IMG/VR virus record: IMGVR_UViG_3300025407_001045
Location: 1-31,537 of that record
Strand: one strand, 5' to 3'
DNA from: a virus
Length of the DNA stretch: 31,537 nucleotides
In this document: positions 23,119-31,222 of the stretch, piece by piece
How the letters are laid out: each line of letters opens with the position of its first letter
Position numbering within the stretch: the first letter of the stretch is position 1
Made by a program: the position numbers and the translations under genes
Notes under the pieces: model-generated
What the model was told of the DNA's origin: nothing
Databases searched by the model: none
The model's input: only the letters and a program-made list of their open reading frames with translations

Positions 23119-26100
23119 ATGGCTGTTGATATAAAAGTTGCACCGGATGAAAAATTAGAATTAGTTCAAACATATATTACTGATACTAATCCAAATTCTG
23201 ATTATTTTGTTATAAGTGAACTTCCTGATACATTTTCTGGAGGTAAAAACGCATTCTTAATAGCAGGTAGTGATAAGTTATTAGCTAATACAGAAGTAAA
23301 AGTTCAAGTTAGAGATGCAGCGGGTAATGTTTGTTATATAGAATTTTCAAACGGATTACCTACTGAATATTATGAAGGTAATTCTAAAGTAGTTGCAGTT
23401 TATGTATATCCTACACTTACTTCTTTTGGACCTGCAACAATTACTGTATTAGGTCAATTAAAAGATGTTCCTACTGAATGGAGTGGTTTATATAATGTAA
23501 AATGGCAAAAACAGGTTAATATAAATCCTGCATTAGCAAATACAACTAGAGTAAGATTATATAAAAGACCATTAGTTACAATTTCAGAAATATTAGAACC
23601 ACTTTATTCAATTGTTAGTGGTAGTAAAGTAGCCTCATTAGTTACACAATCATTTGCATCAATTAAAGTAAATCAATTAGAAACTTTTGCAGGAGATGTT
23701 GCTAGAGTAAAAGTATATAGAACATCAGCAGGAGATATAGCAGATTATGAATTAATTCAAGATATATCGATAGAAGCAAAAAATCTTTTAACTACATATG
23801 CTTTAACAGGTAGTGTAGTTGGAAATGCAGGTATATTTGGTCCAGATAGTTTAAGTAAAGTTTGGAATACCGGTTCATTAAATGCACAATTAAATTCAAC
23901 GTACATTAATGATGGTTTGCAATTAGATGGACATGGATTGCTTACATATACATCATCCTTAAATTTATTAAGTTCAAATACATACGAATTAGAATTAGAT
24001 ACATTTTTTACAGGTTCAACTTCAACAAATTTAGTAGCATACATTAGTGGTACACACAATGGTGCAATTCCAATTACTACATTTAGTGGTTCAATTCCAA
24101 CTAAAAACTTTGGTACTACTACAATACCATTTACAATACCTAATGATGAACCAACTGCAAGTTTATATCTTTCACAATCAGCAAGTGAATGGCATGTTGG
24201 AAATATTTCATTAAACCTTTCACAAGATACAGCATTTTCACCAAACGAAGTTAGTTTTATTACATCTATGCCAACGGTATTAGGCAATGAAACGTTTAAT
24301 TTTAAGTTTGAATTATATGATATAAACAATAACTATGTACCAATTGCAATAACACAAAGTGCTTTATTTACAGGTGGTAATAATAATGTAGGTGGAACTT
24401 TACTATTAATTAGTGGATCAACATCGGCATCAAATGCAGCAATATTAGCCTTATCACAATCAGTAAGTGGAACAATTGGTGTAGTAACTGGTAGTGTATC
24501 ATATGTAAGTACAAGTGTATCTCAATCATTTTATACATCATCAGTATATTCGGCATCATTACAAAGTTCATCTTTATATATTAGTTCATCTATTAGTGGA
24601 ACAATATCAAATGTATCTCAAAGTGTAAGTGGAACAATATCATTTGTAAGTTCATCTTTGAGTAGTAGTATATCATCATCTATATCAACTTCAATTGCAT
24701 TTGCTAGTCAATCTGTATACAATTCATTATCATCCTCATATGCAAAAGTTCAACAACTAGCAGATGGTGGATATAGTGGTTCTTTTATTAGTGGGAATGT
24801 AATGTATGCACCGGTAGTTGGTGGACAATTAGGATATTTTAGTAGTTTATTTAGAGTAGGTCAAGAACCTGGTTCAATTTATTTAGATGCTAGAACTTCT
24901 ACAAGAAAAATATACATAGGTGGAGTAAATTCAACCGGTTCATATAATAGTGGAAGTACTCCAGTTTATATGGATAGTGCTGGAAATTTTTCATTAGGTT
25001 CTGGATTATTATGGGATGGTTCATCATTGACAGTGAATGGTACAATAAATGTAACGGGTGGAAATGCAGCCACACAAGCATATGCAAGTAGTTCAGCATT
25101 CACACAAGCAAATACAGCATATACAAATGCAGTTTCAACGGCAAGTGGTAGTTCATACACAATGGCAACTACATCTGCAAATTCAGCATACACAAATGCG
25201 TCAGCAAGTGCGTATACAATGGCAACCGTATCATCTAATACGGCATATAATAATGCAAAATCAGTAGCAGATAGTATTGCAAATGGAACATATAGTGGTG
25301 GAACATTAATAACTGGAACAAGTATAGTATCTCCTACAATAGCAGGTGCAAATGGCTATTTTTCACAAACTTTTAAAGTAGGTAATGGTGGTATTACATT
25401 AGATGGAGTTAACAAATTAATTTATGTAGGTGCAGGACATTTTAACAATGCAGATACTGCATTCTATGTAGATAATAGTAGTAATTTTTCGTTAGGTAAT
25501 AAACTTAGTTGGGATGGTTCAACATTAACAGTTAGTGGAACAATTAATGCAAATGCAGGAACTTTTAGTGGAAACATTACATCTACTGCAACTATTAGTG
25601 GTGGAACTATTTCAGGTGGAACTATTTCAGGGGGTAGTATTACAATTGGTAGTAATTTTAGTGTAGATACGGGTGGTAATATGGTTGCTAGTAATGCTAA
25701 TATAGCAGGGGCAATTACCGCCGGTAATGGTTCAACTATTGGTGGTTGGACAATATCAAACTCACAAATATATGTACCAAATGCAATAAATTTAGATGCA
25801 ATTGCAAAACAAATATCAGTTGCAGATGCATCTGGTGTTCCTAGAGTTGTATTAAATCAAAATGCAAGTTTATCTTCATTAACAGGTGGTGGTGGTTCAA
25901 GTGGAGGTTATGGTGGTGGAAGTGGAACTAGTGGAACTAGTTTTTCTAGTACAGTTACAAGTTTTACTGCAAATAATGGACAAACTTATGTTGTAAGTGC
26001 TAATATAAATCAATCAGATGCAGCATATGCAATTACGTTAAATACATTTGGATATTATAGTGGATATTATTCAACATTTATTTACATAACAAATGGTTCA

Positions 26101-26817
26101 ACTACTTATACATTATTTAGTTTTAGTCATTCAATATCTCAAAAGAATAGCACGTATTCGGCTTTAGGTGGTATTAATGGAAAATCTGGAACCCTTTCAT
26201 TTACAGGTGATGGAACTACATGGTCTATAACAACATACACATATTATTCCGGTCCAAATACAATTGATTATTCTAACTATGGATTATCTTCACCTTCATT
26301 TAATTACTCATATGCAGTTGATGTATCTAAAACTGAAATAATACCTGGTGGTTTACAAGTTGTAACAACCTCAACTCAATATGTTCAAGCACCAAGAACG
26401 GCAGGCACAGCATTAATCGTTGGAGGTAATATAACTGCAACCGGTACAATAACACCAGGTGTATCGGATGGTAGGTTAAAAGAAAATGTAGTTAATATAG
26501 ATAAACCATTGGATAAAATAAATAATATAAATGGTGTTTATTTTAATTACACAGATGAAGCAAATATGTTTGTACCACATTTAGGTAAAAATAGACAAGT
26601 TGGAGTTATTGCACAAGAAATAAATTCTGTATTTGAAGAAATACCAGAATTAACTCCAATATCTCCATTTGATAATGATGGACAAGGAAATTCAAAAACA
26701 GGTCAAAATTATATGACTGTTCAATATGAAAAATTAGTACCTTTATTAATTGAGGGTATAAAAGAATTATCTAAAAAAGTATCTTCATTAGAAGCACAAT
26801 TAAGTGGTTCAAAATAA
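23119..26817 (+). CDS. Tail fibre with C-terminal S74 intramolecular chaperone (1232 residues)
   Basis: It probably binds the host surface. Residues 1-160 look like a virion-attachment domain and 160-430 are beta-rich. About 430-545 are a Ser-rich repeat region (variants of SQSVSGTI). Two related beta modules of about 100 residues follow (nt 24766-25068 and 25279-25578), separated by Ala/Thr/Asn-rich repeats (YTMAT and NxAYTNA). A Gly-rich region and a receptor-binding-like part come next. The end (about 1115-1232) is a peptidase S74 chaperone: SDGRLKEN with the presumed Ser1116/Lys1121 dyad, VGVIAQEINSVFEEIPEL, YMTVQYEKLVPLLIEGIKEL, and a final coiled coil. In this family the chaperone trimerises the fibre and then cuts itself off just before that Ser. 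The glycosyltransferase cassette follows after six bases. Confidence 0.9.
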   Translation: MAVDIKVAPDEKLELVQTYITDTNPNSDYFVISELPDTFSGGKNAFLIAGSDKLLANTEVKVQVRDAAGNVCYIEFSNGLPTEYYEGNSKVVAVYVYPTLTSFGPATITVLGQLKDVPTEWSGLYNVKWQKQVNINPALANTTRVRLYKRPLVTISEILEPLYSIVSGSKVASLVTQSFASIKVNQLETFAGDVARVKVYRTSAGDIADYELIQDISIEAKNLLTTYALTGSVVGNAGIFGPDSLSKVWNTGSLNAQLNSTYINDGLQLDGHGLLTYTSSLNLLSSNTYELELDTFFTGSTSTNLVAYISGTHNGAIPITTFSGSIPTKNFGTTTIPFTIPNDEPTASLYLSQSASEWHVGNISLNLSQDTAFSPNEVSFITSMPTVLGNETFNFKFELYDINNNYVPIAITQSALFTGGNNNVGGTLLLISGSTSASNAAILALSQSVSGTIGVVTGSVSYVSTSVSQSFYTSSVYSASLQSSSLYISSSISGTISNVSQSVSGTISFVSSSLSSSISSSISTSIAFASQSVYNSLSSSYAKVQQLADGGYSGSFISGNVMYAPVVGGQLGYFSSLFRVGQEPGSIYLDARTSTRKIYIGGVNSTGSYNSGSTPVYMDSAGNFSLGSGLLWDGSSLTVNGTINVTGGNAATQAYASSSAFTQANTAYTNAVSTASGSSYTMATTSANSAYTNASASAYTMATVSSNTAYNNAKSVADSIANGTYSGGTLITGTSIVSPTIAGANGYFSQTFKVGNGGITLDGVNKLIYVGAGHFNNADTAFYVDNSSNFSLGNKLSWDGSTLTVSGTINANAGTFSGNITSTATISGGTISGGTISGGSITIGSNFSVDTGGNMVASNANIAGAITAGNGSTIGGWTISNSQIYVPNAINLDAIAKQISVADASGVPRVVLNQNASLSSLTGGGGSSGGYGGGSGTSGTSFSSTVTSFTANNGQTYVVSANINQSDAAYAITLNTFGYYSGYYSTFIYITNGSTTYTLFSFSHSISQKNSTYSALGGINGKSGTLSFTGDGTTWSITTYTYYSGPNTIDYSNYGLSSPSFNYSYAVDVSKTEIIPGGLQVVTTSTQYVQAPRTAGTALIVGGNITATGTITPGVSDGRLKENVVNIDKPLDKINNINGVYFNYTDEANMFVPHLGKNRQVGVIAQEINSVFEEIPELTPISPFDNDGQGNSKTGQNYMTVQYEKLVPLLIEGIKELSKKVSSLEAQLSGSK
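25600..25629 (+). repeat. Perfect tandem duplication of a 15-base unit in the tail fibre
   Basis: GGTGGAACTATTTCA occurs twice head to tail (25600-25614, 25615-25629) and a third, diverged start follows. Each unit encodes five residues, giving the repeated ISGGT in a beta-rich, glycine-containing part of the fibre. In-frame units of this kind can gain or lose copies by slippage and so change fibre length. Confidence 0.8.
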
Positions 26818-26823
26818 AATGTT

Positions 26824-27837
26824 ATGTTTGATTTATTAGTTACAACTGGGGCAGGTAATGTTCCTATGGGTGGTAGTGATTTATGGGTAAACAATTTTAT
26901 AGAAAATGTAATACCATTTTTAGAACATCCAACCGTTTTATTAATTGATGGTAGAATGCCTAATGGGTTTGATCCTGATTCTATATCATGTCAATATGTA
27001 TTTGGAAAGGAAAACGCTTTATTAGTAGAACCTCTTTTAAGAAATTGTAGAAGAATACATTTTTTACATAACAATTATTATCGTAGAGATGAATTGTGGG
27101 AATATAAAAATAAATTTCATACTATATTCTGTCACGCATACATTAAAGAAATTATAAATACTAATGTAGATTTAGGATTAGATAGAGTTTATTTACCTAC
27201 TACAATGGATTTACAATGGGAACAAGATGTAATGAATCAATGTAAACAAATAGTTTGGATTGGTTGTAATGATGGTTTAGTACAAAAAGATTTCAAAGAT
27301 AAATGTATTCAAATTCCAAACTACTACGAATTTCAGATTAATAATGAATATCGTTGGATGATAGATAAGATAGGATATGCAGCCCGTAGTGAGACACGAA
27401 AATGTTTTCATTTTTTAGATGGACATAGGGGATATGCATGTACGGATTGGATGGGATATGAAAATCTTAAAGAAGGATTAAACTTAGATTTAAAAAAGGT
27501 AAGATTTTATCCATATAATTTGGAAAATCATAGAAATTTCTTTAACTTAGACTTTACGGTATTTCACGGTTGTTATGTAAATGAACCTTTTGGGTATTCT
27601 ATATTTAACGCAGTAGATTATGGTAAACTTCCAATACTAAACAAATATTGGATGCCAAGAATACCATACAAATATAGAGCATCAACAAAAGAAGAATTTG
27701 ATAAAATGTATGAAATAATGTGTAATGATTTTGAAGTTGAAAGACAATATCAATTTAAATTATTAAAATCAGCATTATTAAAATATGATAACAAACGCGA
27801 ATGGATATTAGAAATAGTTAATTTATTAAATAAATGA
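26824..27837 (+). CDS. Putative GT-B glycosyltransferase (GT4-like)
   Basis: This protein has 337 residues. The N-terminal half opens with LLVTTGAGNVPMGGSDLWVN, where GG-S resembles the glycine loop of GT-B enzymes that positions the acceptor. The C-terminal half has NEPFGYSIFNAVDYGKLPIL (Glu254-Pro-Phe-Gly257), matching the EPFG/E-AM-G-PV nucleotide-sugar motif of GT4 enzymes. However, the second usual Glu is Asn262. FYPYNLENHRNFF lies before it. There is no signal or membrane segment, so it is cytoplasmic. It begins six bases after the tail fibre and overlaps the methyltransferase by four bases (ATGA, the only TGA stop here). An ATG at 26819 is out of frame. Its sugar and acceptor cannot be read from the sequence. 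The alternative is a non-catalytic relative. Confidence 0.68.
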   Translation: MFDLLVTTGAGNVPMGGSDLWVNNFIENVIPFLEHPTVLLIDGRMPNGFDPDSISCQYVFGKENALLVEPLLRNCRRIHFLHNNYYRRDELWEYKNKFHTIFCHAYIKEIINTNVDLGLDRVYLPTTMDLQWEQDVMNQCKQIVWIGCNDGLVQKDFKDKCIQIPNYYEFQINNEYRWMIDKIGYAARSETRKCFHFLDGHRGYACTDWMGYENLKEGLNLDLKKVRFYPYNLENHRNFFNLDFTVFHGCYVNEPFGYSIFNAVDYGKLPILNKYWMPRIPYKYRASTKEEFDKMYEIMCNDFEVERQYQFKLLKSALLKYDNKREWILEIVNLLNK

Positions 27838-28589
27838 TAACAAATAAAGATTACATTAAAAATCATATTTCAAATAATCAAGAAATAGATGAGTATGGTG
27901 ACCAGGTTTTAATAAATGTTCCATATCGTTGGTCACATGGAGCAACTGATGACCATTTGGGGGATGGTTTAATTATATATTCTCTTATTCAATATATGAG
28001 AGCTAAGGTTTGTGTTTGTTTAGGTAGTGGTGGTGGATTTATACCAAGAATAATGACACAAGCTCGTTATGATTTGCATTCTCAAAATATATTTGAAGGC
28101 AATAACGATTATAATCATGGAGATATTGGATGTACATATATTGTAGATGCTGCAAATGGTATTGGTGGTAATGTAAATTGGTTAAAAGAAGAATCTTATT
28201 TTAGAAGAACATTCTGGCCAAGAATTATAAATGATACAACTGCAAACGCATTTCATAATTATTTTGTATTAAATGATATTAAAATTGATTATTTACATAT
28301 TGATGCGGGACATTCATATGAAAATGTAAAGGAAGATTTTGATTTATATTCTCAGTTAATGAGTCCAAACGGTATTATATCAATTCATGATACCGACCCT
28401 AATTATGCAGATAAATACATAGTTACAAATGAAGTGAAGGATAGGGGTGATTTTGATGATTGGAACGGACCCATTCAATTAGCAAAAGAAATAGATACTG
28501 ATAAGTGGGAAGTATTTAATTTATTCAATTTTGGAATTCTAAAAAATAAACCAGCATCTACTGGATTAACATTAGTAAGAAGAAAATAA
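27834..28589 (+). CDS. Class I SAM-dependent methyltransferase (Methyltransf_24-like)
   Basis: This protein has 251 residues. The SAM-binding loop is visible as VCVCLGSGGGFIPR (about residues 57-70). The second half has the strongly marked segment IDYLHIDAGHSYENVKEDFD (Asp157, His160), then SPNGIISIHDTDP (His185, Asp186). This is the D-x-x-HSYE-V-x-D and HD pattern of the Methyltransf_24/TylF-like group, several of which methylate sugar hydroxyls. It overlaps the GT-B gene by four bases and the next glycosyltransferase by one, so the three are translated as a unit. A role in O-methylating a sugar placed by the neighbouring transferases is a reasonable inference, not shown. No DNA-methylase DPPY/NPPY motif is present. 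Confidence 0.82.
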   Translation: MITNKDYIKNHISNNQEIDEYGDQVLINVPYRWSHGATDDHLGDGLIIYSLIQYMRAKVCVCLGSGGGFIPRIMTQARYDLHSQNIFEGNNDYNHGDIGCTYIVDAANGIGGNVNWLKEESYFRRTFWPRIINDTTANAFHNYFVLNDIKIDYLHIDAGHSYENVKEDFDLYSQLMSPNGIISIHDTDPNYADKYIVTNEVKDRGDFDDWNGPIQLAKEIDTDKWEVFNLFNFGILKNKPASTGLTLVRRK

Positions 28590-29428
28590 TGAAAAGATTA
28601 GTTACCGTCACCGGAAGTAGAACAAATACACTTACCCATTTTTTTAAATACTATCAAACTTTAGTAGATGAAATATATGTTGTAGTATACGAATGGGAAG
28701 GTATGAGCACATATGATGAAGTAGAAAGAATATCAAAACAATTTCCTAATGTTAATATTGTTAAACGTTCTAAAAAAGAAAAATTTAATTGGGAGCATGT
28801 AACATATCTTTACAATCAAACTAAAATGTTACATCCAAATGATTGGTGGATAGTTGCAGATGATGATGAGTTTCATGTATATTCAAAAAATTTAAATGAA
28901 ATAATAGAAGATTGTGATAAAAATGGTTGGGATTTAGTTAGAGGTGGTTTTGTAGATAGAATAGGTAAAGAGGGTGAATTTGTAGAATTAAAAGAAGATG
29001 AATATATATTTCAACAATTTCCATTAGCAGGTTTTTTTCGTTATCCTTTAAGTGGAGCATGTCCTAATAAAATTTGTATAATGAAAGGATATATAGAATT
29101 AACACCTGGTCAGCATTATGCAAAAATAGATGGACAAACAACTTGGAAATGGCAAGGTTGGAATCATCCTTTAATCGCACCTACAAACAAATATAGTGTA
29201 ATAGTTAATCATTTTAAATGGGATAGTACCTGTGTTGATAGAATAAAACAAGTAGCAGATATTAATCAAAGATATTCATATTCAAAAGAATATCAGGAAA
29301 TGTACGATGCTATAAAACTAAATAATTTTAAGATTGATATTTATGATGAGAGGTTTATGATTGAAGAATGTGGCTGGTATCAGTATTCTAAATGGGATAA
29401 ACTTTTTAAAATAATTCAGTCTATTTAA
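28589..29428 (+). CDS. GT-A type glycosyltransferase (GT2-like, Glyco_tranf_2_4 pattern)
   Basis: This protein has 279 residues. It starts directly with a Rossmann-like strand (KRLVTVTGSRTNTLTHFFKY) and keeps a clear metal-binding motif, WWIVADDDEFH (Asp91-Asp92-Asp93-Glu94), about 90 residues in. This is the usual place for the DXD that holds the nucleotide sugar. Further on, GACPNKICIMKG, GQHYAKIDGQTTWKWQGWNH and IVNHFKWDSTCVDRIKQ resemble the acceptor side of GT2/GT92-like enzymes that contain His and Trp at the end. There is no membrane segment. It is translationally coupled to the methyltransferase (TAATG). It probably adds a sugar to the same product as its neighbours; donor and acceptor are unknown. 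Confidence 0.78.
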   Translation: MKRLVTVTGSRTNTLTHFFKYYQTLVDEIYVVVYEWEGMSTYDEVERISKQFPNVNIVKRSKKEKFNWEHVTYLYNQTKMLHPNDWWIVADDDEFHVYSKNLNEIIEDCDKNGWDLVRGGFVDRIGKEGEFVELKEDEYIFQQFPLAGFFRYPLSGACPNKICIMKGYIELTPGQHYAKIDGQTTWKWQGWNHPLIAPTNKYSVIVNHFKWDSTCVDRIKQVADINQRYSYSKEYQEMYDAIKLNNFKIDIYDERFMIEECGWYQYSKWDKLFKIIQSI

Positions 29429-29463: not shown

Positions 29464-30945
29464 ATGGTTAATCATAAATTAGCAATAATAGTACCTTATA
29501 GGGATAGAAGAGATCATTTAGATATATTTATTCCACATATGAAAGAATTTCTTAAAGATAAAGGAATTTCTTATAAAATATTTGTGGTAGAACAAGCAGA
29601 TGATAAACCTTTTAATTATGGTAAATTATGTAATGCTGCATTTAGTTTAATTAAAGATGATTTTGATTATTTTTGTTTTCACGATGTAGATCAATTACCT
29701 ATTAATGATAGTTGTGATTATTCTTATAAAGATTATCCATTACATTTAGCAACAAGAGCATCTGCACATAATGATAGATTACCATATTTACAATATTTTG
29801 GTGGCGTAGTTTTATTTACAAAAGAAGATTTTGAAAAAATTAATGGTTACTCAAATGAATATTATGGTTGGGGTTATGGTGATATAGATTTATTATTTAG
29901 ATCTTCTGAAAAAGAATTAGATGTAGATTATGTATATGCATATCCTAAAGTAAATAGTGAATACGAAGTTGGGGAAATGCAAGAAACCGATTCATTAAAA
30001 TCAGAAAAAATACATTCTATTAAATTTGATGGTGAAACATTTTTAGAAATTAAACCAAATAAATTTCTAAAAGACTTAACAACGGATAGTTTTACAGTTT
30101 CGATGTGGATTAAACCAGAAGATAATTTATTGAAACAGCAATATATTTTAAGTTGGCCTGGTTTCAATTCCGGTATTTCTTTGAATTTAGATAATCAATT
30201 AATTTTCAATTTTTGGAACTCACAAAAAATTTATTATTACAATTATAAAAAGATTAAACCGAACGAGTGGAATCATTTAATTGTTAATATAAACTTTGAT
30301 GATAACAAATTAAAAATGTGGTTGAACGGAATTGAGTTACAACCAAATAAAGATGCATCCGTTAATTTTAAAACACCATTGTACGATTATTCAAATTCAA
30401 ACATTTATATTGGATGTGGTTCAATTAATAAAGAATTTTACACAGGCGAATTAAGTAATCTTTATATGTTTGATTATACTCTAACACCAGGTGAAATTGA
30501 AAAATTATATTTGAATGGATTATATTCTAATAAATTTTTACAAACAAAATTTGAACCAGTATTAAGATATGAGTTTGATAATTTCTATAAACAATATTTC
30601 ATAGATAAAAGTAAAACACATAATCACGCTAAAGTATTTGGTAAAGCAGGTACAGATTATCTTAAGTTAGTATCAGAAACTACAATACAAAAGGTAACTG
30701 AAATACCTGTACCACATAGAGTTGCAGGTGAATACCAATCATTAGAACATGAAGGTGATTTAGACATTAAAGATAAATTTAATGGATTTGATCCAGATAC
30801 ATTAGAAAATAAAAAGATTTTCTTTGAAGATATATTTTCAAAAAAGTTTTCAACAGATAAAATTGGATTAAGTTCTCTTAAATTTAAATTAATTGAGAAT
30901 GAAGAATTTAACGATAAAACAAATTGGATTAAAGTAATATTATAA
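29464..30945 (+). CDS. Beta-1,4-galactosyltransferase-like enzyme with an inserted LamG domain
   Basis: This protein has 493 residues. Residues 6-165 follow the beta4GalT pattern: LAIIVPYRDRRDHLDIFIPH, VVEQADDKPFNYGKL, CFHDVDQLP (Asp74-Val-Asp76 binds metal) and QYFGGVVLFTKEDFEKINGY, then YGWGYGDIDLLFR (Asp140, Asp142). About 183-355 is a LamG/concanavalin sandwich (IKFDGETFLEIK to SNLYMFDYTLTPGEIEKLYL), with a linker to about 412. Residues 415-493 appear to return to the beta4GalT fold: HRVAGEYQSLEHEG (His429 fits the third metal ligand) and IGLSSLKFKLIENEEF ending IKVIL, like the final strand of animal enzymes. So the lectin-like domain seems inserted, not appended. The start cannot be later. 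It probably transfers galactose or a related sugar; the LamG part may hold the glycan acceptor. The nested reading is inferred. Confidence 0.82.
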   Translation: MVNHKLAIIVPYRDRRDHLDIFIPHMKEFLKDKGISYKIFVVEQADDKPFNYGKLCNAAFSLIKDDFDYFCFHDVDQLPINDSCDYSYKDYPLHLATRASAHNDRLPYLQYFGGVVLFTKEDFEKINGYSNEYYGWGYGDIDLLFRSSEKELDVDYVYAYPKVNSEYEVGEMQETDSLKSEKIHSIKFDGETFLEIKPNKFLKDLTTDSFTVSMWIKPEDNLLKQQYILSWPGFNSGISLNLDNQLIFNFWNSQKIYYYNYKKIKPNEWNHLIVNINFDDNKLKMWLNGIELQPNKDASVNFKTPLYDYSNSNIYIGCGSINKEFYTGELSNLYMFDYTLTPGEIEKLYLNGLYSNKFLQTKFEPVLRYEFDNFYKQYFIDKSKTHNHAKVFGKAGTDYLKLVSETTIQKVTEIPVPHRVAGEYQSLEHEGDLDIKDKFNGFDPDTLENKKIFFEDIFSKKFSTDKIGLSSLKFKLIENEEFNDKTNWIKVIL

Positions 30946-30955
30946 AATAAAGTAT

Positions 30956-31222
30956 ATGGCAAAAGACGTAAAAACTGATAACTTAAGTATTGAAGAAAGA
31001 ACAGTTTTGGCTTTAGAAAGACAAGCAAAAGCATATGAAAGAATGGCCGGAGCTCAAGAAGATTTAGCTGATTGGTTTCATGGATTCGATAGAAAAACTT
31101 GGACTGAAAAGTTAGAATGGTACTTACATGAGTTCTACCAAATTATGAAAACTAAACAAGTAGGTGGTTCTATATCTAGACCTGATAGAGGTTATGAGAG
31201 AGAAGCGGATGAGCAAAAATAA
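30956..31222 (+). CDS. Small charged helical protein between two galactosyltransferase-like genes
   Basis: This protein of 88 residues is not recognised. It is mostly helical and charged. The first 50 residues (SIEERTVLALERQAKAYERM) form an amphipathic helix, and WFHGFDRKTWTEKLEWYLHE is a Trp-rich segment that could bind a partner. The basic, Gly/Arg-containing end is probably flexible. There is no signal or membrane segment. Its leader (AAAATAAAGTAT) has no Shine-Dalgarno sequence. It overlaps the next galactosyltransferase-like start by 14 bases, so translation of the two is probably coupled. A helper of either transferase is possible, but nothing in the sequence shows it. Confidence 0.68.
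   Translation: MAKDVKTDNLSIEERTVLALERQAKAYERMAGAQEDLADWFHGFDRKTWTEKLEWYLHEFYQIMKTKQVGGSISRPDRGYEREADEQK

Follow-up and report, generated by a model that had tools for sequence, protein, structure and literature searches.

A phage gene described here encodes a glycosyltransferase of the GT7 (beta4-galactosyltransferase, or beta4GalT-like) type whose fold is almost certainly split by a LamG lectin-like domain, with the last third of the enzyme resuming on the far side of the insert. Nested GT7-LamG proteins are a widespread and conserved variation on a familiar enzyme family, the one that includes the enzyme making milk sugar. The gene lies in IMG/VR record IMGVR_UViG_3300025407_001045, a 31.5-kb virus fragment (hereafter the window, the whole 31,537-nucleotide stretch that was analysed; G+C about 25-34%). 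Its source is an uncultured tailed phage, with baseplate-wedge, primase and SbcC-like genes related to those of Microcystis phage Mel-JY01 and Flavobacterium phage immuto; tRNA and Rfam scans across the window give no matches. The open reading frame is intact, running on the plus strand from an ATG at 29464 to the end of the stop codon at 30945 and encoding 493 amino acids. The original prediction, made from the letters alone, placed beta4GalT motifs in the N-terminal part and a LamG-type sandwich after them, and both are borne out. Pfam finds Glyco_transf_7N (PF13733) at residues 3-86 (E 6.6e-24, 84.5 bits against a cut-off of 27), Glyco_transf_7C (PF02709) at 94-158 (E 1.2e-17, 63.8 bits against 23) and Laminin_G_3 (PF13385) at 203-345 (E 4.4e-17, 63.1 bits against a curated cut-off of 27.6), and the N-terminal motifs align with beta4GalT1. 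The domains stand as predicted, with their limits refined to about 1-165 for the first GT part, 180-395 for LamG and 417-493 for the second GT part (Table 1).

Table 1. Features of the nested GT7-LamG gene and its neighbours, in window coordinates.
Feature	Coordinates	Strand	Basis or remark
Long tail-fibre-like protein with Peptidase_S74 (endosialidase-chaperone) at its end	23119..26817	+	PF13884 8.5e-13; directly upstream of cassette
337-aa protein, first cassette gene after tail-fibre gene	26824..27837	+	No Pfam match
Methyltransferase (Methyltransf_24)	27834..28589	+	Pfam; position conserved in relatives
Family-2-like glycosyltransferase	28589..29428	+	Pfam Glyco_tranf_2_4 E 1.3e-5, just under cut-off
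GT7 (beta4GalT-like) glycosyltransferase with nested LamG, 493 aa, position-1 paralogue of three-gene array	29464..30945	+	
GT7 fold, first segment (residues ~1-165)	29464..29958	+	Pfam 7N and 7C; PDB beta4GalT1/7 match at 3-155; model elements 5-160
HDVD (residues 73-76), DxD motif	29680..29691	+	Asp76 = bovine beta4GalT1 Asp254 by alignment
WGYGDID (residues 136-142)	29869..29889	+	Trp136=Trp314, Gly139=Glu317, Asp140=catalytic Asp318, Ile141=Asp319
Nested LamG-like sandwich (residues ~180-395)	30001..30648	+	Pfam Laminin_G_3; profile matches; Foldseek; model strands
GT7 fold, second segment (residues ~417-493)	30712..30942	+	Tail homology; model elements 423-492 against 160-221 of an uninterrupted relative
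His429, expected metal ligand	30748..30750	+	Aligns with bovine beta4GalT1 His347 via uninterrupted GT7
Small 88-aa ORF between paralogues 1 and 2	30956..31222	+	Similar small ORF in relatives
Start of position-2 nested paralogue, cut by contig end	31209..31535	+	52% identity over residues 3-113

In the window protein, single-sequence searches detect GT7 no further than residue ~158 and LamG no further than ~345, the picture that would be expected from an end-to-end fusion in which a truncated GT7 is followed by LamG and then by an unrelated C-terminal tail. A phmmer search of the PDB likewise matches beta4GalT7 and beta4GalT1 at residues 3-152 only (E ~1e-33 to 1e-29), so the C-terminal GT part is invisible to a single sequence. 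Family profiles tell otherwise. An HMM of the C-segment, built from residues 412-493 of nested proteins only, recognises the tail in 67 of 72 uninterrupted GT7 proteins but gives no match among 1,440 shuffled tails, and in those uninterrupted proteins the C match abuts the N match (offset -16 to +2). Comparing nested with uninterrupted C-segments by hhalign gives 98.5% probability (E 1.7e-15, 75 columns), against 0.2% for a control pairing LamG with the tail. Across 2,808 ORFs from a further set of loci, the same HMM yields 69 matches, and all 69 also carry the GT7 first segment. The whole-family profile and human beta4GalT1 align collinearly in two places, residues 3-155 with 64-217 and 427-477 with 233-281, LamG falling between them; the second stretch alone is weak. 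Against the PDB, the C-segment profile has beta4GalT1 as its top match and in the right place, but weakly (E 0.12), a comparison superseded by that with the uninterrupted GT7 proteins. Modest additional evidence comes from covariation within the nested family (Neff ~68), where the top 150 pairs are enriched for N-C pairs (32 seen, 19 expected) and depleted for N-LamG (27 seen, 49 expected).

The tail is thus homologous to uninterrupted GT7 tails, collinear with beta4GalT1 and, as described below, folded with high confidence in the expected order of elements. The tail homology refutes an end-to-end fusion, to which we now give next to no credence, and since the nesting rests on homology to uninterrupted GT7 proteins it is shown independently of any structure model. 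It is near certain that residues ~417-493 supply the final third of the GT7 fold, with LamG nested within that fold. This upholds the nested insertion that had been proposed in place of an end-to-end fusion, together with two finer assignments: by alignment with uninterrupted GT7 proteins, VAGEYQSLEHEG corresponds to the segment carrying the metal-binding His, and IGLSSLKFKL to the DGLNSL strand. Landmark residues of this second segment are P417, R419, G422-x-Y-x-x-L-x-H429, N449 and G468-L469.

The AlphaFold2 model of the window protein, made with 96 family sequences, has a mean pLDDT of 95.2 and a pTM of 0.89. Its first GT elements are E5-12, H16-29, E36-44, H52-66, E69-73, E77-79, E115-119, H120-125, H139-149 and E155-160; after the LamG strands come E423-426, H432-440, H444-458, E475-483 and E486-492. 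An uninterrupted viral relative, L169 (pLDDT 94.2, pTM 0.92), is modelled as E7-13, H17-33, E38-45, H54-65, E71-75, E79-83, E115-119, H120-125 and H139-150, followed by E160-163, H173-187, E204-212 and E215-221, and Foldseek aligns it end to end with beta4GalT1 (229 columns, TMq 0.89). The modelled nested protein has the same element order as L169, split by LamG. This order, and the alignment of His429 with the conserved metal His of the uninterrupted family, answer only indirectly to the original prediction's two conditions, a C-segment that completes the galactosyltransferase sheet and a His429 close to Asp76. Foldseek of the nested model against beta4GalT covers the N-segment only (~152-162 columns), presumably because a local alignment does not cross the 230-residue insert. 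This result and the single-sequence PDB search, both reaching no further than the N-segment, were set aside as tests of nesting, neither supporting nor refuting it.

Alignment with uninterrupted GT7 proteins puts the insertion after the strand behind the W-G-x-G-x-E-D-D-D helix and before the R..GxY..LxH strand. Using what we take to be the beta4GalT1 sequence between the two aligned stretches, this corresponds to ~334-339 in bovine beta4GalT1 numbering (a numbering consistent with the mutant names in PDB titles), some 5-10 residues before the metal ligands Met344 and His347 and the mobile loop of beta4GalT1, which closes over the acceptor. LamG directly precedes the strand that carries His429. 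In every copy, all three paralogues and the bacterial homologue described below included, it sits ~10-20 residues ahead of the predicted metal site. Animal beta4GalT 1 and 7 (CAZy GT7) share with the window protein the GT-A fold, the DxD and WGxG..D motifs, a His at the aligned metal-ligand position and a DGLN-like strand; they have no inserted domain, whereas the nested protein has a LamG of ~215 residues before the strand with this His. Uninterrupted bacterial and viral GT7 proteins (for example L097, L169, L100 and L115) are homologous to both segments, and many have a similar Ser/Cys-x-x-His metal segment; they are ~200-300 aa long, lack LamG and fall outside the nested clade.

The original prediction had also called for a search of phage proteins for the same nested order, and the order proves common. 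A first scan of viral contigs returned nine full-length relatives, at 32-94% identity to the window protein. Scanning IMG/VR with the family profile raised this to at least 72 loci, most with two or three copies; in them the order GT7 first segment, LamG, C-segment occurs in at least 211 ORFs, of which at least 158 are unique, forming at least 95 clusters at 80% identity. In eight contigs longer than 100 kb that were searched whole, three full copies are found in seven and two in the eighth, each set within one region. A quick tree on the GT columns alone gathers the nested proteins into one clade (SH-aLRT 93), the sole exception being a fragment of 93 aa. This exception, L141, an apparently uninterrupted row in the nested clade, was considered as a case of LamG loss and dropped, its 93-aa frame standing at a contig start. 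Within the clade, genes at positions 1, 2 and 3 for the most part group separately, a pattern most simply explained by one insertion and a later triplication.

INPHARED gives no matches to the window protein, to its N-domain or to paralogue 3. A first scan of genome contigs, with patterns from the window protein alone, also found no nested copies; the family profile later found them there, in contigs binned with bacteria. One apparently bacterial example, L092:5950-7440, has SNF2, kinase, GT2, ABC-transporter and HlyD genes on its flanks, and since its contig looks cellular the nested design is not strictly phage-borne. Such bacterial copies are rare. Among open-licence PMC papers, no description of a GT7 with LamG or with an inserted lectin domain was found.

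Alignment with beta4GalT1 pairs Asp74 and Asp76 (the DxD motif) with Asp252 and Asp254, Tyr111 with Tyr289, Trp136 with Trp314, Gly139 with Glu317, Asp140 with catalytic Asp318, Ile141 with Asp319 and Asp142 with Asp320; His429 aligns with the conserved metal His of the uninterrupted GT7 family. The window copy differs from animal beta4GalT at three positions, Glu317 to Gly, Asp319 to Ile and Met344 to Ser (Ser426). The original prediction named Gly139 and Ile141 correctly and took them to suggest a different acceptor, but they are derived states: of the 158 unique nested relatives, 128 have Glu at position 139 and 106 have Asp at position 141. The acceptor-contacting Glu of WGWGGEDDD is a specificity feature of the animal enzymes and does not define the GT7 fold family. 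Most relatives keep this Glu, and most keep donor-site Tyr111, whose place at Tyr289 we take, from family knowledge, to fit a UDP-Gal donor. Both substitutions, Glu to Gly and Asp to Ile, are genuine, but to judge from the aligned residues they are confined to a lineage, belonging to the position-1 paralogue and not to the architecture; position-2 and position-3 copies usually keep E-D-D-D. Because most relatives do so, L003:8167-9612 for example, a different acceptor is conceivable at most for the position-1 paralogue.

Might the window protein instead be a degenerating pseudoenzyme that serves the active paralogues at positions 2 and 3 by acting as a scaffold or lectin? Divergence does mark the position-1 clade out from the others. 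Several of its members (L054, L056, L059, L062, L065, L069 and L081) have Trp for Asp140 and have lost His429, and three further copies (L008, L009 and L010) have Asn for Asp76, again with His429 lost; the window copy itself has IGLSSL in place of DGLNSL, and Gly at the Glu317 position, which weakens the case for normal activity. The same copy, however, retains Asp76, Asp140, Asp142, Trp136 and His429. The Ser at its Met344 position is no sign of decay either, Ser or Cys being usual there across the family, including in copies with canonical E-D-D-D, and its frame is intact, with relatives at 32-94% identity conserved along their full length. A pseudoenzyme is on balance rather unlikely, and since Asp76, Asp140 and His429 are kept, the window protein is probably active as an enzyme, with an altered acceptor site. 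Across the unique nested relatives, Asp76 is kept in 152 of 158, His429 in 139 and both in 138, and all five proteins without Asp76 also lack His429. Paired loss of Asp76 or Asp140 with His429 goes in the same direction wherever copies differ, but amounts to two or three independent pairs and carries no significance; it was dropped as proof of a contact between these residues, the losses being few and clustered. Separately, the Trp-for-Asp lineage of position-1 proteins (L054, L056, L059, L062, L081) retains full length, and its members are possible pseudoenzymes.

The reading that we favour, and consider fairly likely as a whole, is that of an active GT7 whose nested LamG holds the acceptor, acting as one of three paralogues in a cassette that builds a phage-made glycan; activity and acceptor holding are the weaker parts of this statement. 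Such a GT-A enzyme of beta4GalT-like type would take its hexose, probably galactose, from a UDP-sugar and transfer it with inversion and in dependence on a metal ion, while LamG would keep the acceptor glycan close to the active site. The three paralogues would act in turn, together with the cassette's other transferase, its methyltransferase and its radical-SAM protein, building or capping a glycan during infection, whether on the virion or on the host envelope. This choice of donor, acceptor and linkage draws on family knowledge. For the LamG segment, profile matches to PF13385, to sialidase lectin domains and to pentraxins, along with a Foldseek match in fold, place it among the LamG/concanavalin A-like domains, and we infer that it binds glycan; holding the acceptor would be the most economical reading of its position. 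It differs from PF13385 domains in lying inside an enzyme fold. Where glycosyltransferases carry lectin modules, these are normally attached terminally, as in the GalNAc-Ts, GT-A enzymes with a C-terminal ricin-type domain, which likewise pair a glycan-binding module with a GT-A enzyme but as end-to-end fusions. Alpha-lactalbumin, which acts on beta4GalT1, is a separate subunit, and the nested LamG may be likened to the same role played within one chain. Tentatively, and with rather less confidence than in the favoured reading, LamG could be a built-in acceptor-selecting module by the mobile loop, and phages could have diversified it into three enzymes that assemble one defined glycan step by step. 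A conserved family that carries such a module within its catalytic fold, close to the predicted metal site, is a natural system for testing how a binding domain may set acceptor choice or processivity.

LamG could alternatively serve as an anchor, fixing the enzyme to the virion or the cell surface and binding no acceptor. The cassette does come after a tail-fibre gene, and there is a precedent in another virus, whose particle contains LamG-type proteins and a putative beta4GalT (PMC7507832). Anchoring alone, however, would give no reason for nesting just before the predicted metal site in every copy, and Pfam finds no tail or capsid attachment domain in the window protein; we regard anchoring as improbable.

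The neighbourhood is that of a glycan-building cassette, in which the nested gene usually stands as three adjacent paralogues. In the window the order is Peptidase_S74 fibre, 337-aa protein, methyltransferase, family-2-like glycosyltransferase and nested GT7-LamG. Relatives continue with three nested genes, then a radical-SAM protein, a stand-alone LamG protein and sometimes a sugar epimerase. Counterparts of the family-2-like glycosyltransferase occur in L003, L028, L064, L033 and L094, and a complete nested orthologue of the truncated position-2 gene is present at L003:6746-8164. As the nested family occurs at 72 or more IMG/VR loci, in a conserved glycan cassette, and INPHARED gives no match, it marks a sugar-modifying programme of uncultured phages. 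The radical-SAM protein after the third nested gene (L003:9615-11012 and counterparts) is itself conserved, with a CLAKW..HNHSCHHP motif, and the L003 protein has no match in INPHARED.

The target of the cassette could be the phage's own virion proteins, for instance the adjacent tail fibre, and not host O-antigen or capsule. This is a serious contender, if somewhat short of an even chance: the cassette directly follows the fibre gene on the same strand, whereas in pelagimyophages the glycosyltransferases of a tail-fibre-rich host-recognition cluster have been read as modifying the O-chain against co-infection (PMC7029224). Pelagimyophages, too, are T4-like and have radical-SAM and glycosyltransferase genes close to their tail fibres; GT8 is given there as the leading family, and galactosyltransferases are not mentioned (PMC7029224).

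The LamG domains of the cassette, nested and stand-alone alike, have a D-x-S-G-N-x-N strand after the F-D-G/F-T-V-S-x-W strands (window 29998-30660; L014:12012-12812; L084:11452-13230), that is, at the end of the domain and not at its start. In the LamG of phage Mel-JY01, the one comparator, the D-x-S-G-N-x-N strand precedes them. A circular permutation common to the nested and stand-alone forms is possible on this pattern. At the start of the contig (window 3-941) lies a Nol-like carbamoyltransferase, another small-molecule or glycan-modifying gene.
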